In this document: positions 4,730 to 49,294 of the stretch, one piece after another | Layout of the letters: the number at the start of each line of letters is the position of its first letter | Numbering within the stretch: position 1 is the first letter of the stretch | NCBI GenBank assembly: GCA_025360045.1 | Contig: JANYCY010000001.1 | Coordinates: forward strand, 1-50,088 | Direction of reading: 5' to 3' | Length of the DNA stretch: 50,088 nucleotides | Source: Janthinobacterium sp. | Lineage (GTDB): Bacteria; Pseudomonadota; Gammaproteobacteria; Burkholderiales; Chitinibacteraceae | Program-made: the position numbers and the translations under genes | Notes under the pieces: model-generated | Told to the model about the DNA's origin: nothing | The model's database searches: none | What the model saw: only the letters and a program-made list of their open reading frames with translations

Positions 4730-5464
4730 TTACACCCGAGCTGAAGTTTTTGATATTTTCTTCCTTCGCCAGCTCCGCCTGATTGCAAAAAAGCTTAGTG
4801 CAAAGCCGGTAATGGTCAACCCCATGGCGGCGATGGAGGTGCCGCGTAAGAGGCTGTTGTTAAAATCCTCGCCCTCGCTGTAATCCATCACATGTAAACG
4901 CCAGAAAAAATCGTAAATGACCCATGCTTCATTGCGGGCAGCCAATAGCTCGCCGCTCTGGCCGTCAAAGTAAAAACGGCTTTGCAGCGCATCATCAAAT
5001 CGTGCCACCCAAACATTTTGGCGGGCAGAAAATTCATGCACCATGCCAAGGCGGCGGGGGGCTTCTTTGATTTTGATGACTTCAGCTAATTTGCCTTCGC
5101 CCTTATAGATACTGTTGGCAAACTGGCTAATATTGCTGGCATTGGCTGTTAAGACTGTTCCACCTGCTGCACTGAAAAGCAGCTCTTCTTTTTCAAAACG
5201 TAGCTTAAGTGCTGGGCCAGTGGCTGTGGCAATGCTTTGCACACCGAGCAAAGCGCCTTTATCTGTGGGCATGGGGCCGATCTGGGCCGCCCAATTAGCA
5301 GGTAGCGGCTGGCGTGGTTTTTCCATCACTTCGCCGCATTTAATCCAATCCTGAAAAGGCAGCCAGGCAAACAGCAGCCCGCCCAGTATCCATGCCAAAA
5401 CCTGAAATGCCACCAGATAGCCTATCCAGCGATGCCAGCGAAAAAATTGTGCGGTGAGTGTCAT
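4730..5464 (-). CDS. PepSY-domain membrane protein
   Basis: A 244-residue membrane protein. There is one hydrophobic segment near residues 10-35 after an RWHRWIGYLVAFQ motif, a soluble periplasmic-looking region at about 40-205, and a C-terminal membrane segment near 210-230 followed by a basic tail. The RWHRW start and the late WRLHVMDY stretch are typical of PepSY-associated transmembrane proteins, some of which act as inner-membrane reductases or helpers of iron-siderophore uptake. The gene converges on chrA, with a palindromic repeat between them. Its closeness to a TonB receptor fits a role in metal uptake, but this is inference. Confidence 0.75.
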   Translation of the reverse strand: MTLTAQFFRWHRWIGYLVAFQVLAWILGGLLFAWLPFQDWIKCGEVMEKPRQPLPANWAAQIGPMPTDKGALLGVQSIATATGPALKLRFEKEELLFSAAGGTVLTANASNISQFANSIYKGEGKLAEVIKIKEAPRRLGMVHEFSARQNVWVARFDDALQSRFYFDGQSGELLAARNEAWVIYDFFWRLHVMDYSEGEDFNNSLLRGTSIAAMGLTITGFALSFFAIRRSWRRKKISKTSARV

Positions 5465-5493
5465 TCTGTATTTTTGAATCCAGAGTTAGTTTT

Positions 5494-6654
5494 TTATAAA
5501 ACAGCTAAAGCGTGCTCCAGCCAGTGAAAGCCAATTTTTTCTTGCTCTAATCTGAGATTATTTTCAATTCGATTGTTTTTTAAGTCAGCAAATAATGCCG
5601 CTTCCACCTGATTAAGCCTTGTCAGGCTGGCATGGCTGGGTTTTTCTTCTATTCCCCATTGGTTTTTAAACTGCAGCAGGGTGATTTTATCCATAAGTAA
5701 GGAGTGGGCCTGAGGAAAATAGCTGCGTAGCTGATCCAAAATCGCAAAGCCATGGGTATCGATATCGCCCCAGTAATGGATTTGGCAAGTGTGTAGCCAC
5801 TTTGCTTGCGCCAGCATGTCAAAGCCATAGCCTGAGCCAAAGATCACCATGCTGTGGGGATGCTTGGGGAAGGCGAGAAAATTGATCTCATTTTCGGTGA
5901 TAAAGACCCTGCTTACCTTGCAAGCGAGTAGAGCAAAGCTGGCTGCATCAAGGGTGATATCGGCATCATCCGCCAGTACGGCGTAAGTAGCGTCGAGAAT
6001 CCGAAAGCGCACACGCTGTGGTTTATCGCAAAAGCCATAGCGCTGAGCGAATTGGGCCACGCCACTTGCTGCCGTGTTGATGGCATCCGCTGGCAGGGCT
6101 AAATCGAGTAATTCGGTCAATACGCCACGATGTGATTCGATCAATTTGCTGTGAACATCCGGCAGATCGACTTGGCGTAGATAAATTCCGGGGCGAGGGT
6201 GGCTTTGCAGCCAAGCCACAATGGCGAGCAGCTTTGGCCATTCGTCGGCTAGCTCGAGCGCACGCAAGGGCCGCTTGGCCAGCCAAGGATGAAGCTTTTG
6301 ATCTTGCGTTACAGTAAGCAGCTGCTTAAACCTTGCCGCCTCAGCGCTTTTGGCTATCAATGCCAAAGCGTCTTCTAGCGTATCGACCCATACTTGATCG
6401 GGCAGGCTATTGCTACCCAGCGTGCGATGATTGATTTCCCGCATGACAAGTCGGCAATGGCGCATGGTTTTTAGCTCGCTGATCCAAGCTCTTGCCGCAT
6501 CGAAATGATTGGATAGCTCAGCCGAAGTCGGGCCTTTAAGCTGCAAGCGTTTAGGAGGCAGCGGCTCGCCGCTGACTAAACTAGCCAATATCTCGCCCCT
6601 ATCCCAAAGCTTTTTAACTTGGGCACGTAGGTTAGCGGGGGAGGTCCAGATCAT
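5494..6654 (-). CDS. jetD: Wadjet anti-plasmid system nuclease subunit JetD
   Basis: The nuclease of the Wadjet system, which cuts small circular DNA after loop extrusion by the JetABC condensin-like complex. The protein has an N-terminal DUF3322-type region and a C-terminal TOPRIM (DUF2220) domain. The TOPRIM acidic residues are visible as Glu254 in FITENEINFL and Asp297/Asp299 in YWGDIDTHG. I chose the ATG at 6654 (386 residues), because the 26 codons upstream in the longer open frame are translated palindromic repeat (CSLCSSRSLCLQ). No strong Shine-Dalgarno sequence is seen. It is separated from jetC by about 285 bp of nested repeats, so it may be less tightly co-expressed than in compact jet operons. 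Confidence 0.9.
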   Translation of the reverse strand: MIWTSPANLRAQVKKLWDRGEILASLVSGEPLPPKRLQLKGPTSAELSNHFDAARAWISELKTMRHCRLVMREINHRTLGSNSLPDQVWVDTLEDALALIAKSAEAARFKQLLTVTQDQKLHPWLAKRPLRALELADEWPKLLAIVAWLQSHPRPGIYLRQVDLPDVHSKLIESHRGVLTELLDLALPADAINTAASGVAQFAQRYGFCDKPQRVRFRILDATYAVLADDADITLDAASFALLACKVSRVFITENEINFLAFPKHPHSMVIFGSGYGFDMLAQAKWLHTCQIHYWGDIDTHGFAILDQLRSYFPQAHSLLMDKITLLQFKNQWGIEEKPSHASLTRLNQVEAALFADLKNNRIENNLRLEQEKIGFHWLEHALAVL

Positions 6655-6684
6655 TTGTCGTTGCTCATGGTGTGGAGAAAAGTT

Positions 6685-6919
6685 CTGTAGACACAGAGAT
6701 CGGGAAGAACACAGAGAGCACAGAGAAAACAATGCTAAGGACTTGGCTCTTAATTTATGTCCAAATTTTGAAGTTTCGTCATTCCCGCATGGTTTTGGCG
6801 GGAATCCAGCAGTGCGGCTGGATCCCCGATAAATACACTCGGGGATGATGATTTAATCTGAACTTACTTAGGCTTTTCTCCGTGTGCTCTGTGTTCTCTA
6901 TGCCCTCTGTGTCCACAGG
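6685..6919. repeat. CACAGAG-family palindromic repeat interrupted by an ATTCCC-type repeat (copy 2)
   Basis: The left arm (6685-6730) carries gacacagag and agagcacagagaaaac; the right arm (about 6872-6919) carries ttttctccgtgtgctctgtg and ccctctgtgtccacagg. The two arms are complementary but lie about 140 bp apart because a second repeat type (6778-6850) sits between them. The element fills the gap between jetC and jetD. Confidence 0.75.
6778..6850. repeat. ATTCCC...GGGAAT repeat (copy 1, nested)
   Basis: The sequence gtcattcccgcatgg, then ttggcgggaatccagcag, gctggatccccgat and cactcggggatgatg, forms two small hairpins (ATTCCCGC/GCGGGAAT and ATCCCCGA/TCGGGGAT). The same unit occurs at 13551 and 33604. 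It resembles the ATTCCC...GGGAAT repeats (dRS3-like) known from Neisseria, with a longer loop. It is inserted inside the CACAGAG palindrome. Confidence 0.75.
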
Positions 6920-6940
6920 TTTTTTTAAGGCAGCCAGATC

Positions 6941-9900
6941 TTACTTCGCCGCCTTTTCACTGCGATATTCTGCTATCGATAAATTACGCAGCATGGAGGC
7001 ACGGCCGGCTTCGTTGTGGACGAAGCCGACGCTGGCGACAAAGGGCTCGATGATGTGGATTTTCTGCAAAGGTGTCACGATCAGTAGTTGCAGATTAAGC
7101 TGGGCAAATAGCCGTAAGCCGTATTGCGCCGATTCATCTGAGCCACGGCCAAAGGCCTCGTCGATCACCACAAAGCGGAATGATCTGGAGCGCACCGCGC
7201 CCCACTCCAAGCCAAATTGATAAGCAAGGCTGGCGGCGAGGATGGTGTAAGCCAGCTTCTCTTTCTGCCCGCCCGATTTACCGCCCGAATCCGAATAATG
7301 CTCGTGTTCGGTATTATCCTCACGCCAGCGCTCGCTGGCAGCAAATACAAACCAGCTGCGCACATCGGTCACTTTATTGGTCCAGCGGCGGTCTTGCTCG
7401 GTTTGCCCTTCGCGGCCGCGAAAGCGCTCGATAATTTGCTTCACTTGCAGAAACTTGGCCTCAGAATATTGCGCGTCTTCGGAGCCGCTTAAAGCACCTT
7501 CGGTACACGAGCGCAATTCGCTCTGAAAATCTCGAATATCGGCGTCGGGGGTCGGCTGGGCTTGCAGCTCGATATAGCGGCCAGTGTTGTAGTCGATTTG
7601 CGTGAGCGAGCCATTAATCAGCGCGATCCGCTCCTTAATGGTTTCGCGCTCACGCGCCAGCTGCGATTGAAAATTAGCCACTTCGCGGATGGTATTTTCA
7701 TTCAGCAGCTCTTTAAAACGCGCTTCAAAACGAGGTAGATCGTCGGCTTGTAGCGCATCCAGCATGGCTTTGTATTCAAAGGCTGCCGCAATACTGGCGT
7801 CGGTTTCGGCGGTTTCTAGCTTGAATTCTTCCTTGTAGGAGGTCATCGCCTTGACGATACGCTCCCCCAGATTGCTGATTTTTTGCGCTTCTCTATCCAT
7901 CTGCTTTTGCAGCCAGTCGCGCATTTCGCGCTCACGGTTTTCGCAGGATTCAATGGACAGCTGGTGCTCCCCTAGCGCCTCGCTGCGCATGGCGTCGAGT
8001 TTATCCAAGGGAACTGTTGAGGGCGGAGCTTCATTTAATTGCAGCTGTGTTTGGGTGTGCAGGCTCTTGGCGTCTTCCAATCTGGATTGGCTTTTACCAG
8101 AATCACGGATTTTATCTGCCAAGGCATTTTCTGTCTCTGCCAGCTCGGCTTGTAATGCTTTTAGGCGCAGGCTAAGGCTTTGCAGTAGATCGGATGCGGA
8201 TTCTAGCTGGCGTTTTTCGTCCACCAGCTTGCCTATTTCTAAGGCTAATTCCTGCCAATCGAGTTCTTTAAAATCGCTGTATTCATCCAGCTTAGAGAGA
8301 GCGGTGAGCTGATCTTTCAGCACATTCTGTTCAGCCTTGATTGCGCCAATCAGCGCCGCGATTTTGGCCATCTCGGCCTCAAGCGTGAGTTTATTCGCTT
8401 CCAGCGCGGCGATTTTATCCAGATTGCTCCAGCCCAGCACATAGCGGCTGCGATCTGTCAGGCTGTGGCGGTCATCTTTTTCGTGGCGCTCACCAGGCGC
8501 TTTGATTTGTCCTGCTTGCGTGATGGCGCGGGTTTCGCGGCGAAATTGCTCTTGATTGGCGCAGCAGGCCACATCAAAGCGTTTGTCGATTTCGTTTTTG
8601 AGCCAATGGTAAAAAGGCGAGTCGGGCTTTACTGCCAATTTGCGCGCTAAGGAATTTGGCCCCAGATTTTGCGGCGTGCTGTGGCTGCTTAGTCGGATAC
8701 GGAAATACACTAAGCGGCCTCTTAAATGGGTTTTATCCACCCAATCGGCCACCTTGGCGTAATGCTCATCGGGCACCAGCAGGGATAAACCAAAGCTGCG
8801 CAGCATTCTTTCTGCCGCGCCTTGCCAGTCTTTCTCGTCTTCATGCACTTGGAGTAATTCACCAGCAAAAGGCATGTCGGCGGGGTTGAGCGCCAAGGCG
8901 CTGCATAGCGCAGCGCGCATTCTGACTTGCTCATCGGGAATATTGCTGAGCCGTGCTTTTAGGCTGCTGATTTCTGCCACGAGGGCATTACGCTCTTGCT
9001 TGCCTTGCAGAAAACTAAAGTCATGCTCTCTTTCGGTGTTTTTAAGCTGGGCGTCTTCCGCTTCAGCGGTGTCTTTAATGGCGGCAAAGCCAAGCTGTTG
9101 CTTTAGAAAGGCGCTTTCTGTTGTGCAAGGCTGCTCGCCAATGGCGCTGACCAGCTCGGCATAACGTTCGGCTTTTTTCTCTTTGGCAAGGCGAGCCTGC
9201 TCTTTACGTAGGATTTCGGCGGCTAAGAATTCCAGCCGGTCGCCACCGTTATCGCTGATATTTTGTTTTAGCTCCGCTTCGCTATGCCTTTGCTCGCTAC
9301 GTTGCAGCTCAAGTTTTTCAATTTGCGCTTGCTGCCTGCTGCAATCATCGAGCAAATGGCTGATCCGCTTATCCAGCAGCGCCAGTTTATGGCCCGCAAA
9401 ATAGGGCCTGAGTGCCTCGCGGCTGAGGCGTAAGTCTTCGAGCTGGCTACTTAGCTTGGTGTGGCGCTCAGCGTCATCCACTAACGGCGTTAGTAACAGC
9501 ACTTGCCGTTTGGTTTTCAATACAGCTTCGTGCGCACGGTTGAGATCGTCAAAATGCCCGATCAGCGCGCTAATTCGCGTTGCCACATCAAAGGGCTCGA
9601 GCATATGGCTGCGGACAAAATCGGTGAGATTGCCGACCGATTTCATTGATACGGTTTGATGGAAAAGCTCTAAAGCTTGAGTGTTTTCAATGCCAAAGCG
9701 GCGGCGAAACCATGCTTCATAAGGTGGAAAGCTATCGTTTATCTCGGCCTTACTGGCCTTTAGCCTTTTGCGTAGCGCATTTATATCGCCGCCAAACTGG
9801 GCAAAGTCTGTGGCGATCGTTAAGCCTTGCTCAGCGCCGACATAAAAGCGCTCAGGCTGATTTGCGCCTGGCTTCATCCAAAACACTTGCGCCAGCGTAA

Positions 9901-10309
9901 TCGTTTGATCGTAACCCTCGTTATGAAACACGCCGAGAATCACCGAGTAGCTATTGTTATCTCGCAGGCTAACGGGCTTGGCATTGCCACTGGCCTCATT
10001 TCGCTCGGATTTATAATGCCCAAGCACATAGGAGCGTAAGGAGCGCTCCTTATGATCTGCCCCCGCCGCCTTGTTATAAGCAATCCGATGAGCGGGAATC
10101 AGCAGGGTGGTGACAGCATCTACTAAGGTGGACTTACCCGAGCCAATATCGCCTGTCAGCAGCGAGTTTTTACCCGCAGGGTGCAGCGCCCAAACGCGGC
10201 CATCGAAGGTGCCCCAGTTAAAGACTTCTAGGCGCTGCAGACGAAAGCCCGATAGCGCATCGTCGTTGGAAAAATCTAGCCCAAGGCTATCTGGCAGCGG
10301 CTTAGTCAT
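6941..10309 (-). CDS. jetC: Wadjet anti-plasmid system SMC-like ATPase JetC
   Basis: A 1122-residue SMC/MukB-like ATPase, the motor of the Wadjet system. The Walker A motif GDIGSGKS is at residues 53-60, followed by [10 protein letters not shown] long central region rich in Leu, Glu, Lys and Gln (about 280-900) is typical of SMC coiled coils. The ABC signature SGGKSGGQ is at 1008-1015 and Walker B VVIDEA at 1047-1052. The start codon overlaps the end of jetB by 8 bp, indicating translational coupling. The length matches the JetC family. With JetA and JetB it forms a loop-extruding complex that senses small closed circular DNA and presents it to JetD. Confidence 0.95.
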
Positions 10310-10907
10310 CGCGTGTACCTCCGGCGAGCTGCATTTGGTAGGCGGCTAATTGATCGTCAAATTCGGCCAGCCATTGCGCGTCGACAAAGGCTTTTAAGAT
10401 GCGCCGCACTTCATACAGGGTGTGATTGCCCGATTTAATTTTGCGTAAAAACCCCAGCTCGGCAATTTTATTGAGGTGCGTTTCAATCTGGTCGAGCAGC
10501 TTGGCTTGATTGTTGTTGTCAGGCAAAAAAACACGGATGAGCTCGCTAGCATCGTCCAAGCTCAGCACCAGCCGCGTGTCACCGCCGCTGGCATCAAATT
10601 CGGCCAGTTTTTTGCGCAGCAGCGCCAGCATTAAACTAACAGGAAAAGACAGTTGCCTGCGGCTAATCAGCCGCTTGGGTGCGGTAGCCTCGTCATCCTC
10701 TATGGTTTTTGATTTTAAAAAAGCATAGCCCTCAGCTTCGTCCAGCACCAACTCCAGTCCCAGCGTCACAATATAATCACGCACCCTCACCTGTAGCTCG
10801 AGCAAATCCCGCCAAAGCTTAGCCTCGCTATCTTGGTAAATCACCCCTTTCAGTAGGGTAATGATCAGGGTGGATAGATCGGCATTGGATGTTTCTGTTT
10901 CACTCAT
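10302..10907 (-). CDS. jetB: Wadjet system subunit JetB (DUF4194)
   Basis: A 201-residue protein of the DUF4194/MksE-like family, a small winged-helix kite-type subunit that bridges JetA and the SMC motor JetC. Assignment rests on its size, its mixed helical sequence ([13 protein letters not shown], then [15 protein letters not shown] near the C-terminus) and its place between jetA and jetC. It overlaps jetC by 8 bp. The ATG at 10907 follows about 200 bp of palindromic repeat that separates it from jetA. Confidence 0.88.
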
Positions 10908-10931
10908 TGCGGTCTCAAATGATTGCCTAAA

Positions 10932-11114
10932 TATAAAGATGCTTCAGTTTGTTTTAATAGAGAGCTAAACCTTGAACCACAGAGTAAAACGAGGACACAG
11001 AGGTCACAGAGAAAACCATAAAATCTCTCATTTCCTCTGTGAAACTCTGTGCTCTCTGTGTCCTCTGTGGTTCAAGGTCTTGGGCTCTTAGTTATAAACT
11101 GAAGCATCTTTATA
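10932..11114. repeat. 183-bp near-perfect palindrome between jetA and jetB (CACAGAG family, copy 3)
   Basis: The outer arms tataaagatgcttcagttt (10932-10950) and aaactgaagcatctttata (11096-11114) are perfect 19-bp inverted repeats. Inside, ccttgaaccacagag faces ctctgtggttcaagg and acagaggtcacagaga faces complementary tctctgtgtcctctg, so nearly the whole element can fold into one long hairpin. Its discrete ends suggest a MITE-like mobile unit. It carries no gene. Confidence 0.85.
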
Positions 11115-11122
11115 CTCAGCTG

Positions 11123-12571
11123 TTATCTTGCTCTGATAAAAATCACTCGCGGTAAACGGGCTTGTTTGCTCTGCTCTATTCCATCGCCGTTGCTGCGCTT
11201 CCAGATAATTAGTTCGCTGTTTTCTTCGTCTATCACGCTTTTAAAGCGGTCCCCTGCTAATTGCAGATAGGCGACTAGCTCGGCGAGGCCTTGTTCTAGC
11301 GGCTGTAATTCGGTGAGTTCACGCAGGCTGATTTGTGATTTATCTTGCAGGCTGCGCTCGATATGTAGCGCTAAGGCGGCTTTATCGACCACCACTTGCG
11401 AGTAGAGCGCGGAGGTTTCGCCTTCAAAATCGCCCGATTCAATCAGCATATTACTGATGATGGGCTTGATGCTCGGGGTGTAGAGTGGCCGCTCCATCGG
11501 CAGCTCGATATCGGCGGCGGTATCGCTGATTTCCATGATGCTGGCTGGTGGCGCGTCCCGCAGCGCAAGGGCCTTGGCTTCGATGCCGTGCAAAATATCC
11601 ATAATCCGGCGGTTTTCTAGCCAAGCTTGGTCATCCAAAAAGCGCCGTAATTGGCGGCTTAAATCGGCGACGGTGCGCTGGGTATGCTCGCCAGCTTCTA
11701 GCCAATCGTAGTGAATACGGCGGGTGCGGCTATCGGGCTTTAGCTCGGCAACGGGGGCGAGTGACAATACGCGCTCCAGCAAGCTGGACAATTCTTCTTG
11801 GCGGCGGCCCGACATTAAAAAATCCCAAAAGGCACGAAAGCTACGGCCTTGGTCAGAGTCGCTGATGGCATCGCGCTCGCCCATAATTTCTTCGAGTAGC
11901 TCGCCTTTTGATCCCTGCCATAGCGCAATGCGTTCACGCACCCGCCGGTCCAGCCCACGAAAATTATGCTCAACTTCACGAAAATCGCTGAGTAATTCAC
12001 GGGCAATTTGGGTGAACTGCTGAAAGCGATCTTTGAGCGCGGTGTCGTCCAGTAGCGCCATATCACCGGCCATGACCCGTGAAATTTCGGCGTCGATAGC
12101 GGCTTTTTGCTGCTGCAATTCTGCCAAACGAACTTGCGGATTGGTCTCGCTGCCTTGGCTCATTTGCTTGAGTAGTTCAAACAGAGTAAGCAGGCGGGAT
12201 TCGGTACCTACAAAGCTGCGCTCCGTTAGGGAGCCCAACCAAGCGATGGCTTTTTCGGTGGCGGGCATTAGATCGAATTGTGGTTCGTCCGAATCTTGCG
12301 CATAAAATTTACGCAGCCAAGCATTGCTGGCCCAGTCGTTCAGATAATCAAGGGCAGATTTAGGAAACGCCTTGGAGCCGAGTTGTTCGCGTAGGCCAAA
12401 TAACTCGTCTTCCAAGTTTTCAGCCAAATCGGCCTGTGCCATGACGCGTATATTGGGAGTAATAAATACTCGCTGTAAAAAGCTGGCAATAAGTGGCGCG
12501 TGGTCGGAGCAGAGTAAACGCCACGCAGGGTGATTTTGGCGTAATAGGGCGAGCGTGGCGTGGTCCAGCAT
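11123..12571 (-). CDS. jetA: Wadjet system subunit JetA (DUF3375)
   Basis: A 482-residue protein of the DUF3375 family, the kleisin/MukF-like subunit of the Wadjet condensin complex. Features are an N-terminal MLDHATLALLRQNHPAW stretch, helical charged middle regions (about 160-340) and a C-terminal LTELQPLEQGLAELVAYL region. Together with jetB, jetC and jetD on the same strand in the order A-B-C-D, this completes a type I-like Wadjet locus. It is the first gene of the operon. About 180 bp separate its start from the divergent amino-acid-binding protein gene, and this stretch should hold the operon promoter. Confidence 0.9.
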   Translation of the reverse strand: MLDHATLALLRQNHPAWRLLCSDHAPLIASFLQRVFITPNIRVMAQADLAENLEDELFGLREQLGSKAFPKSALDYLNDWASNAWLRKFYAQDSDEPQFDLMPATEKAIAWLGSLTERSFVGTESRLLTLFELLKQMSQGSETNPQVRLAELQQQKAAIDAEISRVMAGDMALLDDTALKDRFQQFTQIARELLSDFREVEHNFRGLDRRVRERIALWQGSKGELLEEIMGERDAISDSDQGRSFRAFWDFLMSGRRQEELSSLLERVLSLAPVAELKPDSRTRRIHYDWLEAGEHTQRTVADLSRQLRRFLDDQAWLENRRIMDILHGIEAKALALRDAPPASIMEISDTAADIELPMERPLYTPSIKPIISNMLIESGDFEGETSALYSQVVVDKAALALHIERSLQDKSQISLRELTELQPLEQGLAELVAYLQLAGDRFKSVIDEENSELIIWKRSNGDGIEQSKQARLPRVIFIRAR

Positions 12572-42400: not shown

Positions 42401-43447
42401 GCAAAAGTAGGGCGCGGCACCGAGATCTCTAACGCCATTGGCGTGGTGCCGGATTTGCTCACCTTGGGGGAAGACAGCTTTATCGCCGATGCCGTGATGC
42501 TAGGGGATGAAGAAATTGATCGTGGCTGGATGACGCTACGCCCCACCGTGGTCGGCAATCGCAGCTTTGTGGGCAATGGCGCTTACGTGCCCGATGGCAG
42601 CATTATTCCCGACGATGTATTGATCGGCGTGCAATCCCGTGCCCCAGCCAATGATCGTATGCAATCTGGCCAAACATGGCTGGGCAGCCCGGCGCTATCT
42701 CTGCCTGCCCGCGAGCAAGTCAGCGGCTTTGCCGATAGCCTGACCTTCCGCCCAAGCTTGGCACGTCGCCTAGCCCGCGGCTTTGTTGAAGCGCTGCGCA
42801 CCGTAATGCCGTTGGCGGTGATCATTGCCGTCGGCTATCTCACCGTATTAAAAGTCATGCCCTTTGCCGAAAGAGAAGATTTTCACGGCGTATTTTGGGC
42901 GCTGATGATGGCCGGTGTTTTATACGGCGTGGGCTCATTTATCTTTATTGTGGCGCTAAAATGGCTAATGATAGGCCGCTACCGCCGGAATGAAGCCCCG
43001 ATGTGGACCTCCTTTGTATGGCGCAGCGAAGCGCTAACCAGCCTTTACGAATCCATCGCCGTGCCCAACTTCTTTAACTTCTTACGCGGCACCCCATGGC
43101 TACCCATGGCGTTTCGCTGTATGGGTTGTAAGATTGGCAGTGGGGTATTTATGGATACCACGGACATCACAGAGTTCGATTGCGTCAGCATCGGCGACGA
43201 TACGGTGATGCACGCATGGTCCGGCCCGCAAACTCATTTGTTTGAAGACCGCATCATGAAAATTGGCCGAGTAGAAATCGGCTCTGGCGTTAACGTCGGC
43301 CCACGCAGCACCATCCTGTACGACGCCATCGTCGGCAACGGCGCCCGCCTCGGCCCGCTGACGCTGGTCGTCAAAGGCGAAACTATCCCCGAAGGCCAAG
43401 CATGGACCGGTAGCCCCGCCGTACCATGGCGGACATGCCGCAGCTAA
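39482..43447 (+). CDS. Pls/PosA-type membrane-bound single-module NRPS (homopoly-amino-acid synthetase)
   Basis: A 1321-residue protein with the architecture of epsilon-poly-L-lysine synthetase Pls, whose length is almost the same. The adenylation domain spans about 20-505 (A3 YTSGSTGKPKG at 159-169, NTYGPTECT near 296, YRTGDLARID near 382, SGKIDRKTLK near 487). The carrier domain carries its phosphopantetheine Ser547 in GELGGHS. Three repeats of a membrane-helix pair (about 615-690, 850-925, 1105-1165) and a left-handed beta-helix/transferase-like domain (about 715-815, 955-1065, 1205-1310; LGAKVGSNVAL, LLGAKVGRGTEI, MGCKIGSGVFM) follow. Pls activates lysine and joins it into a chain through these three domains. 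The likely product is a cationic poly-amino acid. The amino acid used is not known. It overlaps the PPTase gene by 22 bp. Confidence 0.88.
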   Translation: MILRGPFLPELLRAETLADLLESTAQRIPDHPAIYWQDEVLSYSELNRRADLAAHHLIQFGVTAGQIVGLCLPRGAALLIMQAAIAKAGAAWLPFEADTPLDRMQVCLIDAAALLLIGDGDLAGVGVPVLSSAQLSAPVAGDLLRRQGLLPSHPAYVIYTSGSTGKPKGVPINQGSICHFLRSENSVLGVRQDDKVYQGFSCAFDMSFEEIWISYLVGASLWLAPKILTGDPDALPRVLNQEKVTVLHAVPTLLALFSQEVPSLRIINLGGEMCPESLVERWATPERQVFNTYGPTECTVSASLAQLRRGEPVTIGKPLPNYGLLVRSEDGRLLPQGETGELCIIGPGVADGYLGRPDLTAEKFFDNPFSNLEEFPHERRLYRTGDLARIDEIGQVQCLGRTDDQVKVRGFRVELGEIEASLCQIAGVGTAAVLLRELAGIDQLVAFVVAESSDAAALKNELKRSLPPYMIPARFEFMSEIPRLTSGKIDRKTLKARELIIPTGKNLESDEPVSDAEKALFAALTTLFPGQALRLVDDFFGELGGHSLLAARLVSILRRNPAYAGMTVQEIYQSRTLQVIATRLDALAQQQPEQVEIEPIRKVPFLRRLLCGSAQLASLPFLIGLRMLLWLAPFFTYHFMTGEEGDSLGVAVGAAILVYLGSLLCSFAIAIAGKWLILGRLKAGRYCLYGLTYFRWWLVDRLQDICPLYFLTGSPLQSLYLRALGAKVGSNVALAAISVRAYDLLSIADGASIGASVNFENFRVDGDHWEVGPIAIGKDAYIGSYTVLQSDTVVADYGRLEGLSALSRGQKIAASEVWSGSPARRSAEAVPEMPARPVRNPALRGLHGLAYAGGSALVAILFFVPVFPSFLLIDWLDAHWFDLTEQGVALPEAFMFYLMLALPASAVLIVLTLIGSAAVRWLLLPRNPLGSWPVFGPMYYRRWLTNQIQESSLNILHGLYASVYAGWWYRLLGAKVGRGTEISNAIGVVPDLLTLGEDSFIADAVMLGDEEIDRGWMTLRPTVVGNRSFVGNGAYVPDGSIIPDDVLIGVQSRAPANDRMQSGQTWLGSPALSLPAREQVSGFADSLTFRPSLARRLARGFVEALRTVMPLAVIIAVGYLTVLKVMPFAEREDFHGVFWALMMAGVLYGVGSFIFIVALKWLMIGRYRRNEAPMWTSFVWRSEALTSLYESIAVPNFFNFLRGTPWLPMAFRCMGCKIGSGVFMDTTDITEFDCVSIGDDTVMHAWSGPQTHLFEDRIMKIGRVEIGSGVNVGPRSTILYDAIVGNGARLGPLTLVVKGETIPEGQAWTGSPAVPWRTCRS

Positions 43448-43941
43448 TTGTCCACGATCTGTTTGAGCTGGCGCTGTTTAAAAACAGCGCCAGCCATCAA
43501 GCGGCCATCGTTCGCCAATGGCTGCACACCCAAGTGCAGCCAAGATCAGGCGGCCAACTGCTAGAAACCCCCACCGGCCCCGTATTCGCTAGCGGCCCAT
43601 GGCAAATATCCCTCTCCTACAGCACCGATTACGTCGTCTGCGCCCTATCCAAATGCGCCATGCTCGGCACCGACATCACCCCCATCCAATCCTTCGCCGA
43701 ACTCACTGACGTCGCCCAACACTACTTTTCCCCTGCTATTGCTCAAGCACTTAACCAGTTGCCAGAATCAGAGCAAGCATTACGCTTTGCTAAGGAATGG
43801 AGCGAGCTGGAAGCCAGAACGAAGGCTTGCAAAATGGGGCTGAGGGAATGGTCAGAGGGGCGGGAGCAAGCTTTGCAAATGGCAAAAACAAGCTATGTAG
43901 TCAGGCTGGAGAGCGAAGTGATTACAGTGGTGTGGGTTTGA
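43426..43941 (+). CDS. 4'-phosphopantetheinyl transferase superfamily protein
   Basis: A 171-residue Sfp-type enzyme that would transfer phosphopantetheine from CoA to Ser547 of the neighbouring NRPS. The magnesium-binding motif GTDITPI holds Asp83, and FAKEWSELEARTKA (121-134) holds Glu129 and Lys133 of the conserved W-x-x-KEA-x-x-K signature. It is shorter than Sfp (224 residues). The usual His of the SHS motif (which contacts CoA in Sfp) is Tyr65 here (SLSYS). The 22-bp overlap with the NRPS gene argues for joint function. Membership of the family is sure; full activity is not. Confidence 0.83.
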   Translation: MADMPQLIVHDLFELALFKNSASHQAAIVRQWLHTQVQPRSGGQLLETPTGPVFASGPWQISLSYSTDYVVCALSKCAMLGTDITPIQSFAELTDVAQHYFSPAIAQALNQLPESEQALRFAKEWSELEARTKACKMGLREWSEGREQALQMAKTSYVVRLESEVITVVWV

Positions 43942-44063
43942 TTTTTAACATTACTCGTGCTTATTTACGTACTCCGTCAGTTTTTTGTGATATTTTCTTT
44001 CTGTTTACCTTTCTTTGAATGATTGTTCGAAGAGTTAGCTTATATTAAAAGAGTTAATGAATA

Positions 44064-46694
44064 ATGATCGAAAAATTTTTCGCAAATACAAAGCAACAGC
44101 CTTTAGATCAGCACCTATTTTCAGTGGGCTTTGTTGCATATTTGTTAATAAAAAAATTATTGAATGATGATAAATTGGCTACAGCTGCTTTTGTCGCGGG
44201 TGGATTGCATGATATTGGCAAACTTGATCCTGAGTTTCAAGCTTGGCTGTTAGGAACAATCAATAAAGATTTAATAAGTGAGCAGCCAGAGGATGGTTTG
44301 CATATTGAAAAAGGCCAATTCACCTTTGATAAGCATGCGCGCCATAATGAAATTTCTCTGTTCTTGTACCACTTGTTAGATGATGAAGGTTTCAAAGATA
44401 TAAATCGACGAAACAAAGATTTAATAAAGCATGTAATTTATTGGCATCATGCAAAGCCAATTCGAAAAAATGAATTTACATCTCTAGATTTTATTCAAAA
44501 AAAACTAAGTAAAAGTATTGGAGGTGCAAGTCTAAAATGTTTTTATAATGAAGTAAAAACTACTATTTCATTGGTAAACAAATTATCAGCAAATTACAAC
44601 GTAGACGAGTCTATAAATTTAACTGGTTTTATGAATGATGTTGAAGAAGACAAGCTTTATGGCTTAGATAAAATTAAATTACCTGATTACAAGAGCTATC
44701 TTTTAAGTAATGACGTTATTAAAGATTATGTCAGCAATGTTAACGAGAATGCTAAAAAAAGTATTGTAAGAGCAGCGGTTATTTCAGCAGATCGACTAGT
44801 ATCATCATTAAGTAAAGAGCAATTAGCGGAACATATTGAACAGCGCAAGTTGGATAAGTTACTTGACCATTTAATTAAAAAGGATAGTACTTTAAAAATA
44901 GATATTGAAAAATGTCTACAGGGATTTGATTCGGCATATCCAGAAAGTCGACGAAATAACCAGCAGCATGAAGCTGCAAAAAAACTTGCGAGCGTAAAAG
45001 GTGTTGCTGTGTTGAATGGCCCTGCTGGCTGTGGGAAAACAAAAATTGCATTGGAGTGGGCGCTTAACTCGGCAGTGAAAAAAATAATTTGGGTTTGTCC
45101 ACGTGTTCAAGTCTGCGAGGGTTTATTTCATGATTTAACATCTAATGAATACCTTCCTAATACTCGTATTGAAATTTGTACGGGGCAGTTGAAATTTGTT
45201 AAAAAAAATGGTTTTTCTGTAACAACGCCAGAAGGAGAAGAGTTTTCTGGTGATATTGTATTAACAACGATCGATCAAATCATAAATACCTTGATCACGC
45301 ATAGCCGTGTCACGAGTTTGATTGATTTTATGGAAACGCATATAGTATTTGATGAGTATCATGAATACATTAATATGCCTGCATTCAATTTGCTTTTTGC
45401 TGAATTAGTACAATGTAAAAAACTACAAGGTGAGTATGCAAGAACACTTTTAGTTTCAGCGACACCAAATTATTTTTTTATCAAAGAAATGTTTGAAATT
45501 GATAAGGATGATGTAATTGGTATTGATAGCTTTAATCAACGTAAATATCAGATTAGCTTCAAGGTTTTTGATGAAACAAAGCATGATGAAACAAATCCAC
45601 TTTTTGCACTTCAAGCTAATAATAGTATTGTTATAAGTAATACAGCCACTACGGCACAATTGAGTTTTATCGCGAATATGAATAAAGAAAATTCAATATT
45701 ATTTCACTCTAAATTTAAACAATTAGATAAAACCATACTTTTCAATAAAATATTCGACTCGTTTAAGCAACAAGGCAGCCTTGCTTATGATGTTTTGCGT
45801 AGCGGGCCTGTGGTCCAAGCTTCACTCAATATTACTTGCAAAAATATGGTGACCGAATTTACATATGCAGAAAATTGGCTACAGCGCTTAGGGCGTCTAG
45901 ATAGATTTGGTGAAAATTTTGGAGTTAATCAGTATGTAATTGCAATACCACAGGCCATTGCTGAAAATAAAGGAATCAAGGGAGGCTGCGCAAAATTCTT
46001 AAACTATATGAATAGTTTTTTAAGTGCGAAAGCATGGTATCAATTTTTACTCGACAACGGCGCACAAAGTAAAATATTGACTATCGCTGATTTTTATCAA
46101 TTTTATGAAAAATTCTATGAAAGTTGCGCGGGAAAAACCGCGGTAGAAAATGATTTGATGGCTGCACTTAAATTTAGCGCTCAGGTAATCGAAAATAAAG
46201 TTCATGATCCAGTTTGTTTCCCTAAAAAGAAAAGTACAAGTAACCAAAAAAAATTAAAAAAATCATCACTACGTGGTGATAGTCGATTTGTTCAAATGGC
46301 GGTATGTGAAATTTCAAATGAAGGAAAATTTTTATTTCCTAATAAATATGCTTGTGACGAATTGAATGATCTATTTACGATGTCTGTTAATGAAATTGAA
46401 GGATATGATCCTACTAGTGATAAAAATATGATCAGCTTCATGTATCAGAAGCATCATAAAATTCTTAGCGCTAAACATCAAAAAAAACACTCTCAGGAAT
46501 ATAAATACTTTATGCTAAAAAATGAAGCCATTGATCCTGAGTTTCCGATTTATGTTAGTTACACGAAAGACGATTTAGATTTATGTAATGACAAGCCACA
46601 CGTACACGCAATTTATTATGTAGTAAGCACGACTCAGCCAATTGGCGCAATTTCAATAAGTAAGCTCAATATTCAATCAAACATTGAGGAATGA
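44064..46694 (+). CDS. cas3: Type I-F2 CRISPR-associated nuclease-helicase Cas3 (without Cas2 domain)
   Basis: An 876-residue HD nuclease/superfamily 2 helicase that degrades target DNA once recruited by Cascade. The HD domain is N-terminal: His17, the H49-D50 pair in GGLHDIGK, His residues near 92-95 and [10 protein letters not shown] near 128. The helicase has Walker A GPAGCGKT at 319-326, DEYH at 430-433, SAT at 465-467 and QRLGRLDR at 607-614. In type I-F, Cas3 normally carries an N-terminal Cas2 domain of about 100 residues. Here the protein starts directly with the HD domain, and only 122 bp of non-coding DNA lie upstream, so Cas2 is absent. It is the first gene of an AT-rich operon, and its stop overlaps the possible cas7 start (ATGA). 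Confidence 0.93.
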
Positions 46695-46696
46695 AA

Positions 46697-47644
46697 ATGG
46701 AAAAAGTAACAGGAATAAAAAGTGTTGATTTTAAAATAAAAGCGCTTGGTCATGGTGTCGTGAATTGGAATGGGCCAACTACTTTAACAGGAGGAGATGG
46801 TAAAACGGTTGATAACCATACCTTACCAAAGTTACGTGGTTACACTAATCTAACTGGAAAAGTTAAAGAAGAGACCGGCTATAGATATAAAAAAGAAGCG
46901 ACTGATATAGACTTTAAAAAAACACCTTTGTATATCAGTCAAAATTGCATCCGACATCACTTGTTTCGAGATCAAGCATTTGATTTGCATTTTGCAGGTG
47001 ATAAAAATATACAAAAAGTGCTTTCATCTATCACTGGCTTGATTCGTGGCTATGTTGTTCCTTCCAGTCAATGCAAACGTACCAGCCCTTTGTTAATTGA
47101 AGATTTTGTGGATCAATTGGGTAATGGGAATTTTGAACAGTATGGCCAAGCTGGAGCTCGTGATAGCACTTCATTTTTCTCAAAAACGACTTTTGGTGAT
47201 ACGCAGTATCAATCTTATGGATCTATTAGTGTCGAACAATTACAGTTTATTTCACTAGATAAAAAATTTGATCGTGCTTCCATCATTGTAAAAGAAGGCC
47301 AAGGTGAAAAGATAGCTGAAGAAATAACGGCCTTTATTAAAACCATTAATCCCTCTTTAAAACCTGAAGCCATATTCCATGAAAATTATGTGCGAAAAGG
47401 CACCATCTTTGAAGAAGGTGAGGTTGGAATCTTATTAAATGATGACGCGATAAAAATATTGGTAACACACACTTTGGAAAAGATTTCTGAGTTGTCTATC
47501 CGACAAGCAAAATCTTATATGTATGTTGATGAAATCATAGTTGATTACAACGACAGCAATAAAATGATGCGAATTAAGAGAGATAAATCGGAAATATCAG
47601 AGCAGCCTGAGTCAGAATTTGCCGTGTATTTTTACAAAAAATAG
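46697..47644 (+). CDS. cas7fv: Type I-F2 Cascade backbone subunit Cas7fv
   Basis: A 315-residue Cas7-type subunit that would coat the crRNA spacer in the minimal type I-F variant (I-F2/I-Fv) known from Shewanella putrefaciens. The protein reads [20 protein letters not shown] at its start, and has [17 protein letters not shown] near 85, [20 protein letters not shown] near 113 and [20 protein letters not shown] near 148; these strongly resemble the Shewanella protein as I recall it. GAGGA at 46686-46690 is spaced 6 bp before the ATG at 46697 but adjoins the ATG at 46691, so 46697 is the likely start. No large Cas8 subunit is present, as expected for I-F2. Confidence 0.9.
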
Positions 47645-47653
47645 AGGTATTCA

Positions 47654-48664
47654 ATGAAAATTGTAATTGAATACGAAGCCTCTTGGCGAAACTCGTTTCT
47701 AGATGGAGACAATAACCGTAAGTTGCCACCATCTGGCCGTGAATATTTAGGGTCGATGACGACATTGAAAAAAGAAGGTAATTTTATTCAACGTAGCATC
47801 ACGTTAGATACCATTATGGGGGTATTAAACCGTTTAATTGGTGACCAAAGAAAGCTTTACCAAACCAGAAATAAACTAGGTTCAAGTACGTATTTTTTTG
47901 AAGAAATTGAATCTAAAATTAGTTTTGAAGATAAACCATTATTAAGTAATGAGATAGTCTATGTACGGAATATGAAAGGCAGTACAGACCAAAATTCTTT
48001 TACAGGCATGATTAAATCTCAAGAGCCAATTCTTTCTTCAGATTATAGTGCGGAACTATGGGGTGTCTTGAAATTAAATTTACATGAATTATGTGATTTC
48101 ATTTTTAATGATGTAATAGTGAATAAAGATATTGATAGTGACCCACTAGTAGTTTGTACATTGATTGAAAACTTAGAGTCTCTTAAACCTATTGAAAATA
48201 CTGGATGTGTTTCTGAGGTGGTTGATTTTTTAGCTAAATATTTTCCAGGTACTATATATTTAAATAACAAAGGTTTAGTGATTACTTCATCACTTTATTG
48301 CTCTGCTTTGTATGTGCAATTAAATAGGCTTTCATTGCGATTTGATATGAGTACAGCATTAACTAAGTCTGGTGGGATTAGTGGAATATCCAAACGAGGT
48401 TTTACAAAAAAAGATTTCATGGATCGCTTTACAACAGGGAAGAAAAAAATTCTTTGGGGTAATCCATATATGAAAAAAGAGAAGATTAAAGGGCAAGGCG
48501 AGGTTACTTCAATGTTGACCAAAGCCAGTGGTCAATTAGAGATAAATATCAATGTCGATCAACAAAAAGGACAAGAGATTAAAGAGCTAATTGAAAATGC
48601 TGGCGTATCAGCTTTTTATCTCGGCAAAAAAGGTCTTGCCTATGTTTCTAAAATACGTGTGTGA
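47654..48664 (+). CDS. cas5fv: Type I-F2 Cascade subunit Cas5fv
   Basis: A 336-residue subunit that would bind the 5' handle of the crRNA and, in I-F2, also take over PAM recognition from the missing Cas8 subunit. The N-terminus [20 protein letters not shown] and the segments [19 protein letters not shown] and [17 protein letters not shown] resemble the Shewanella I-F2 Cas5fv. The C-terminus ([17 protein letters not shown]) is RAMP-like. An AGAGGT ribosome binding site precedes the ATG by 5 bp. The gap to cas7fv is 9 bp, so the genes form one operon. Confidence 0.9.
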
Positions 48665-48673
48665 GGGTAAATA

Positions 48674-49225
48674 ATGGATTATTACATTGACATTACGCTT
48701 AAACCTGATGCTGAAATGAGAGAAAACATTTTATTGAATATGGTATATGCCAAACTGCATAAAGCACTCGTTGATTTAAGTTGTACCGCAATTGGTGTTA
48801 GCTTTCCAGATTATCGGCTAATCCTCGGTAAGCGTATTCGATTACACGGGGCACTCCCTGAGCTAGAAAAACTTCAAGCACTTAACTGGCTCTCAGCGTT
48901 GGTTGGGTATTGTGATGTTTCCGTTGCACAAAAAATTCCTCAGCAAGTACAGTACCGAATAATTTGTCGTAAACAAAGCAATATGACGCAAGCAAAGTTA
49001 AATCGCCTGCTAAAGCGCGGCACTATTACCCTAGAGCAAGCGCATGTATATAAAGAAAAAATGTTTATAAAAGGGCTTGCTAATCCATATGTTGAACTTA
49101 AAAGTACATCTAATAGCGAACAGTATCGACGTTATTTTGAATTTGGTGAACTGCAACCAGAGCCCGTGGTAGGAACATTTGATTACTTTGGTTTGTCTAA
49201 ACAAGCAACTATTCCTTGGTTTTAA
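48674..49225 (+). CDS. cas6f: CRISPR RNA endoribonuclease Cas6f (Csy4)
   Basis: A 183-residue Cas6f that cuts the type I-F repeat hairpin and stays bound to the 3' end of the crRNA. Catalytic His29 sits in YAKLHKALV, as in Pseudomonas Csy4, and Ser144 in the LKSTS stretch aligns with its Ser148. GVSFPDYRL (41-49), a basic helix around 108-116 (LNRLLKRG) and the ending FDYFGLSKQATIPWF, with the typical PWF, complete the match. It follows cas5fv after 9 bp, with a GAGGG ribosome binding site. No repeat it could cleave is visible in the window. Confidence 0.95.
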   Translation: MDYYIDITLKPDAEMRENILLNMVYAKLHKALVDLSCTAIGVSFPDYRLILGKRIRLHGALPELEKLQALNWLSALVGYCDVSVAQKIPQQVQYRIICRKQSNMTQAKLNRLLKRGTITLEQAHVYKEKMFIKGLANPYVELKSTSNSEQYRRYFEFGELQPEPVVGTFDYFGLSKQATIPWF

Positions 49226-49294
49226 ATCTGAATCTATGAGACTTAATTAAATACCCACTCAAAGGACAGTTATAAAAAATACATATTGTTTAGA

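Follow-up and report, generated by a model that had tools for sequence, protein, structure and literature searches.

What does a CRISPR-Cas effector do when the genes that would supply it with new spacers are missing and no array can be seen beside it? This question is raised by a type I-F2 locus near the right end of a 50,088-bp stretch of Janthinobacterium sp. DNA (assembly GCA_025360045.1, contig JANYCY010000001.1), which was analysed over its full length and is called the window here. A sequence-only reading of this stretch had described an operon of cas3, cas7fv, cas5fv and cas6f, complete for interference, and had suggested that it borrows adaptation from another system, uses a fixed array elsewhere or serves a non-adaptive role. 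In this study, we find that the locus is most likely an orphaned effector cassette. With a probability of roughly 0.55, we regard it as an interference-only I-F2 cassette that represents one of several apparently independent losses of adaptation, the array of which is gone or displaced at an insertion sequence (IS) of the IS481 family, and the effector of which is most likely idle or fed by CRISPR RNAs (crRNAs) of mobile elements.

The effector belongs to type I-F2. Its four open reading frames (ORFs; Table 1) are co-directional, separated by short gaps or one short overlap, and their boundaries are exactly those of the sequence-only reading. Cas7fv matched family NF040577 with 486 bits (cut-off 200) and Cas6f matched the Cas6/Csy4 family TIGR02563 with 164 bits (cut-off 36), while the PADLOC profiles scored 1121 bits for Cas3fv and 503 bits for Cas5fv, and the Pfam domain Cas5fv_helical (PF20158) was detected in Cas5fv with 214 bits against 25. 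The ORF list of 44064-49225 holds no extra gene among the four, hence there is no cas8f gene in the operon. All parts of the I-F2 effector module, namely Cas7fv, Cas5fv with its helical domain, Cas6f and Cas3, are present and intact, and both the proposed subtype and the proposed completeness for interference hold.

Two defining features of a complete I-F2 system are lacking, a cas1 gene in the locus and a Cas2 domain fused to Cas3. No match was obtained in the window with I-F2 Cas1 and Cas2 (tblastn, expectation value (E) 1e-4). The alignment of Cas3 with the PADLOC Cas3fv profile begins at profile position 106 of 951, and the N-terminal Cas2 part is thus missing; the protein begins at the HD domain, and an in-frame TGA (44058-44060) lies two codons before its ATG. 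The host assembly comprises 4,020,971 bp in 97 contigs (completeness 99.99, contamination 1.15%), and no Cas1 (PF01867) was found in these contigs. The same search was positive in 9 of 14 control genomes, and an identical Cas1 search was positive in four of seven relatives' genomes, each of these four having an I-F-like Cas1. For Cas2, the window gave no match, and a separate Cas2 gene was not looked for in the rest of the genome. Within this scope the absence of cas1 and Cas2 claimed before holds. A promoter scan upstream of cas3 found 0 candidates, against 0.8 expected.

The interference-only architecture recurs, a point that the sequence-only reading had missed. The comparison was based on 83 loci, 80 of them from genome contigs (the best 80 of 105 relatives) and 3 from the 4 plasmid-collection records, so that the shares are not a prevalence. 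Of these, 70 were judged, all of them with the Cas3 HD start and 1.4 kb or more of upstream DNA, and 13 were dropped (6 with insufficient upstream DNA, 7 without the Cas3 start). A locus was counted as having cas1 and Cas2 when it gave at least one match to each, the matches of L101 being partial. On this basis 64 loci match both, including the plasmid relatives L001-L003, five match neither (L035, L057, L060, L092 and L093), and one, L105, has no cas1 but part of Cas2. In the five, Cas3 begins at the alignment start of the window Cas3 or up to about 20 residues before it, and the upstream ORFs include no cas genes as far as examined. A sixth such locus, L147, is the sole relative found on a viral contig. 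In all six, cas7fv follows a Cas3 that starts at the HD domain, and cas1 and Cas2 have no match upstream. Three of the six have repeats: L035 carries 22 identical repeats with 21 different spacers, L093 has 3 repeats at a contig end, and L147 has 9 repeats after cas6f. Cas7fv was found in five of 399 sampled genomes of the order, the window's genome included; two of the others (G318 and G101) have cas1 and Cas2 nearby, G089 corresponds to the contig position of L049, which has both, and the fourth is G244.

Two of the relatives are worth describing in their own right. L147 (IMGVR_UViG_3300021514_000002, 363,531 bp) carries its locus at 5414-11168, near HNH and homing-endonuclease-like genes. 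A PHROGs scan covered 10 of its 22 listed ORFs and gave nuclease, ATPase and QueC-like matches, with no structural gene among the ten; the viral nature of the contig rests on IMG/VR, and it is possibly a jumbo-phage I-F2 system. L105 (Acinetobacter calcoaceticus JUb89, 7170-9993) is an I-F2 locus without cas1 that retains a partial Cas2 match before cas3, and possibly represents an intermediate of adaptation loss.

The distribution of these loci in a tree of Cas3 and Cas7 (75 rows) suggests that the adaptation module was apparently lost in I-F2 several separate times. The seven interference-only rows, the window among them, need at least six state changes on the starred branches, and a single clade of such rows was rejected by the approximately unbiased test (p-AU 5.9e-33). 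When L147 is left out, at least five changes are needed for 6 interference-only rows of 74. The row nearest to the window is L030, and because this relative keeps cas1 and cas2-3, we infer that the window lost both parts on its own branch. Cas1 and the Cas2 half of Cas2-3 would have been lost in this step, leaving a Cas3 that starts at the HD domain.

No I-F repeat was found in the window or in the assembly, in agreement with the earlier statement that no array is visible. In the assembly, the I-F 28-mer repeat pattern gave 0 matches at up to 3 mismatches (some relatives' repeats, e.g. that of L033, fall outside this pattern), Rfam CRISPR-DR4 gave 0 matches with 150 of 2429 candidates scored, and a wider two-repeat pattern at up to 2 mismatches gave 8 matches against 3 in the control, none of them resembling a repeat pair by eye. 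A repeat model (R1) was built from 30 I-F2 repeats and run on the whole window without filters. It returned 11 matches at E up to 10, the best with 18.1 bits (E 0.0033, the calibration being rough) and the next with 13.4 bits (E 0.14) and two of five stem pairs broken. The best match, a repeat-like hairpin at 47484-47511 on the minus strand, lies antisense in cas7fv and is attributed to conserved LSIRQAK codons. It was rejected as a source of guides, as several relatives have similar letters at these codons, likewise with 10-11 mismatches to the repeat.

These results are to be read as no array found in the assembly, because the expected site coincides with a contig break. Among the 71 relatives with at least 150 bp past cas6f, a repeat-like match begins within 250 bp after this gene in 50. 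The window is itself an entire contig (C39), the right end of which breaks inside the IS481 copy, and thus exactly where the array usually stands, which had gone unnoticed before. The short spacer between cas6f and the IS was considered as a leader remnant. A GCTCTTTAA box occurs within 69 bp after cas6f in 36 of the 71 relatives (43 of 3600 random 69-bp stretches) and is lacking in the other 35; the candidate was rejected as the window has no such box there, although this absence is no proof of loss.

The draft gives some indication of what lies beyond the break. The final 141 bp of the window are identical to the first 141 bp of contig C69, which leads out of the IS to a gene for an M13 peptidase and then to further genes ordered as in the sibling genome G007. 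The first 20 kb of C69 contain neither an I-F2 cas gene nor a repeat; within the limits of the draft, no cas1 and Cas2 genes stand just past the IS, and the assembly as a whole yielded no Cas1. Contig C60 ends in another left end of this IS (99% identity over 211 bp), and the IS copy there interrupts an IS3-type orfA (identified by eye). The assembly therefore contains two IS left ends (C39 and C60) and a single middle part. A direct join of C39 and C69 through IS481 is plausible: the shared 141 bp fits it, whereas the second left end on C60 makes it uncertain. In a flank test run with no positive control, neither of two short neighbour stretches of G007 was found in the host genome.

The genes themselves look intact. 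Nearly all near-invariant residues are kept (Cas3 151/152, Cas7 130/131, Cas5 62/62, Cas6 14/14), among them H29 and S144 of Cas6f, which we take to be the catalytic pair, and Cas3 residues that we assign to the HD and helicase motifs. In comparison with L030, the proportion of nonsynonymous differences (pN) is 0.07-0.19 and that of synonymous differences (pS) 0.70-0.80, and this low pN against a high pS points to purifying selection. Because pS is saturated for three of the four genes, dN/dS gave a ratio for cas6 only (0.105). From these sequence comparisons, the four proteins look functional and their history conserved; neither residues nor pN/pS date the loss of the array. Given a crRNA, the protein families and the intact residues predict that Cas6f would cut repeat RNA, that a small Cascade would assemble from Cas7fv and Cas5fv on the crRNA, and that Cas3 would be recruited and degrade the bound DNA. 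The array, which usually starts soon past cas6f, would be gone or displaced at IS481. Lacking guides, the effector would then most likely be idle or depend on crRNAs from incoming mobile elements.

Array loss at this IS481 is favoured because the rest of the assembly yielded no repeats. Several observations weigh against it. All four genes are intact, which is unusual for an idle system unless the loss of the array was recent, and the contig break cuts off the right side of the locus. The tree was a quick one with support from the Shimodaira-Hasegawa-like approximate likelihood ratio test (SH-aLRT) only, in which L093 and L147 sit on long branches. Four of the five cas1-less relatives are contigs of metagenome-assembled genomes (MAGs), and L057, L060 and L092 have no I-F array in the DNA examined. 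Moreover, L030 shows neither leader nor array over the 1.7 kb past its cas6f or over the initial 3 kb of its contig, and in this lineage the array may therefore have lain away from cas6f. The most serious competitor, possible though clearly less probable than loss, is that a short array exists in the cell and fell into the IS481 assembly gap, for example between two IS copies, so that a working effector would be served by fixed, ageing spacers. It would explain the intact genes and the position of the contig end, and fits the presence of two IS left ends with one middle part; the interference-only loci L035 and L147 likewise retain arrays (22 and 9 repeats). It is opposed by the searches of the assembly, in which no repeat pair was found, by the overlap with C69, which leads to a peptidase gene and not to an array, and by the lack of a leader box past cas6f, even though about half of the relatives also lack it there. 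The fixed array elsewhere that had been suggested thus has no support in the assembly and survives only in this form.

That the effector has taken on a non-adaptive role, with a guide from a solo or degenerate repeat and a task such as gene regulation, is improbable in our opinion. Intact genes without array or Cas1 would suit such a role, as would the degenerate repeat-like stretches that were seen by eye directly past cas6f, outside arrays, in L030 and L044; however, the repeat model produced nothing convincing in the window, its best match being put down to conserved codons and its next having a broken stem, and the earlier suggestion gained no positive evidence. The degenerate I-F repeat-like stretches lie at about 12557-12584 in L044 and at about 9344-9354 in L030 (partial, reverse strand), the latter not reported by the repeat model at E up to 5. 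Even less credible is an artefact, in which misassembly or contamination would account for the missing genes. The assembly is a draft of 97 contigs with 1.15% contamination, but the 5.3 kb of left flank that end with a 4'-phosphopantetheinyl transferase (PPTase)-like gene match G007 at 91%, the start of cas3 has its own in-frame stop and ATG, and six other loci likewise have a Cas3 that begins at the HD domain. An orphaned cassette that lost its array at the IS remains the reading that we prefer.

Borrowed adaptation, the remaining suggestion made earlier, has to be divided. For the window it finds no support, as no Cas1 was found in its assembly, while for the relatives L035, L060 and L092 it is possible, because three of the five interference-only host genomes hold another I-F-like cas1. 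The L035 genome contains a second set, cas1-cas2-3 and then cas7, cut by the contig end. In the isolate genome of L092 there is a cas1-cas2-3 set, 53% identical to I-F2 Cas1 and 50% to I-F2 Cas2, as well as a further, different Cas1, and in the L060 genome a more distant cas1 (44%) occurs with a cas2-like gene. No further Cas1 was found in the genomes of L057 and L093. Adaptation in trans is a reasonable proposal for genomes of the L035, L060 and L092 type, and has been reported for type VI-B with a II-C Cas1 (PMC8092290; this and the other sources given by PMC number are cited from part of their text). The Paraglaciecola MAG that holds L035 also contains a second I-F2 locus, L144 (G009:C333, 3-239), the Cas7 fragment of which (79 residues) is 92% identical to that of the window, compared with 88% for the best full-length relative.

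The surroundings of the cassette are chromosomal (Table 1). DNA similarity to G007 ends at 43946, five bases past the stop codon of the PPTase-like gene. The G007 stretch (L123, G007:C68, 8999-14575) has, behind the same PPTase, a gene that matches a PADLOC profile weakly, then a Lamassu LmuA-LmuB pair (415 and 687 bits) and a SoFic-like gene. The spot after the PPTase may therefore be a defence hotspot at which defence modules are exchanged, as judged from one sibling. Cas7fv was not found in the other eight genomes of the genus that were searched, and the cassette was therefore probably acquired laterally.

Table 1. Positions, in window coordinates, of the cas cassette and its flanking features.
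Feature	Position	Strand	Remarks
PPTase-like gene, left flank	43426..43941	+	match below curated cut-offs
Gap between PPTase-like gene and cas3	43947..44063	+	117 bp; no similarity to the G007 stretch, no Cas1/Cas2 match
cas3	44064..46694	+	876 aa, without Cas2 domain; NCBIfam, PADLOC, Pfam
cas7fv	46691..47644	+	317 aa; NCBIfam NF040577, PADLOC
cas5fv	47654..48664	+	336 aa, Cas5fv helical domain; PADLOC, Pfam PF20158
cas6f/csy4, crRNA endoribonuclease	48674..49225	+	183 aa; TIGR02563, PADLOC
Spacer between cas6f and IS	49226..49294	+	69 bp; without GCTCTTTAA box (up to 1 mismatch)
IS481-family element, 5' part, cut by contig end	49295..50088	+	begins 69 bp past cas6f

For this genome alone the locus has modest weight, as it is probably an orphaned remnant. 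A set of separate losses that all lie close to one fusion point would provide a natural test of whether Cas3 acts differently once Cas2 and Cas1 are gone, and of the extent to which I-F systems in one cell share guides and adaptation genes. A more far-reaching idea, which we put forward as a doubtful speculation, is that I-F2 repeatedly becomes a stand-alone, guide-accepting effector. The fusion point of Cas2 and Cas3 would be where Cas1 and Cas2 are jointly shed, and the remaining module of four genes would travel among chromosomes and large phages and obtain its crRNAs or spacers in trans from other I-F systems. The window would then be an extreme example, with an intact effector awaiting guides from incoming elements.

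Among known systems, the window shares with type I-F2 (I-Fv) of Shewanella putrefaciens CN-32, Vibrio cholerae and Acinetobacter the order cas7fv-cas5fv-cas6f after cas3, and differs in having no cas1, no Cas2 domain on Cas3 and no array that could be found. I-F2/I-Fv has been described with cas1 and with cas2-3 or cas3 (PMC9428484; PMC6360697), and no title or abstract opening returned by searches of open-licence literature speaks of I-F2 without cas1. Degenerated CRISPR-Cas systems were reported in 74 of 4,977 A. baumannii genomes, the missing genes not being stated in the part cited (PMC9428484). Systems without adaptation genes are known in other types and on mobile elements (PMC12669027; PMC7162821; PMC9071438): nearly all phage CRISPR systems studied lack acquisition genes (PMC7162821), and adaptation modules accompany 36% of plasmid systems compared with 88% of chromosomal ones (PMC9071438). 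Like these phage and plasmid systems, the window has effector genes without Cas1 and Cas2, but its locus stands in chromosomal surroundings and no array was found in its assembly. Type I-F3 (Tn7-associated) is also of the I-F family and also without cas1 or cas2 (PMC6360697; PMC9428484, as far as the cited parts go); it is defined by the lack of cas3, whereas cas3 is present and intact in the window and the subunits are Cas5fv and Cas7fv. The closest counterparts are L035, L057, L060, L092, L093 and L147, in which cas7fv likewise stands next to a Cas3 starting at the HD domain. They differ from the window in that L035, L093 and L147 have arrays and the genomes of L035, L060 and L092 hold another I-F-like cas1. 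The locus is thus a variant of the known subtype I-F2, with an interference-only architecture that is recurrent.

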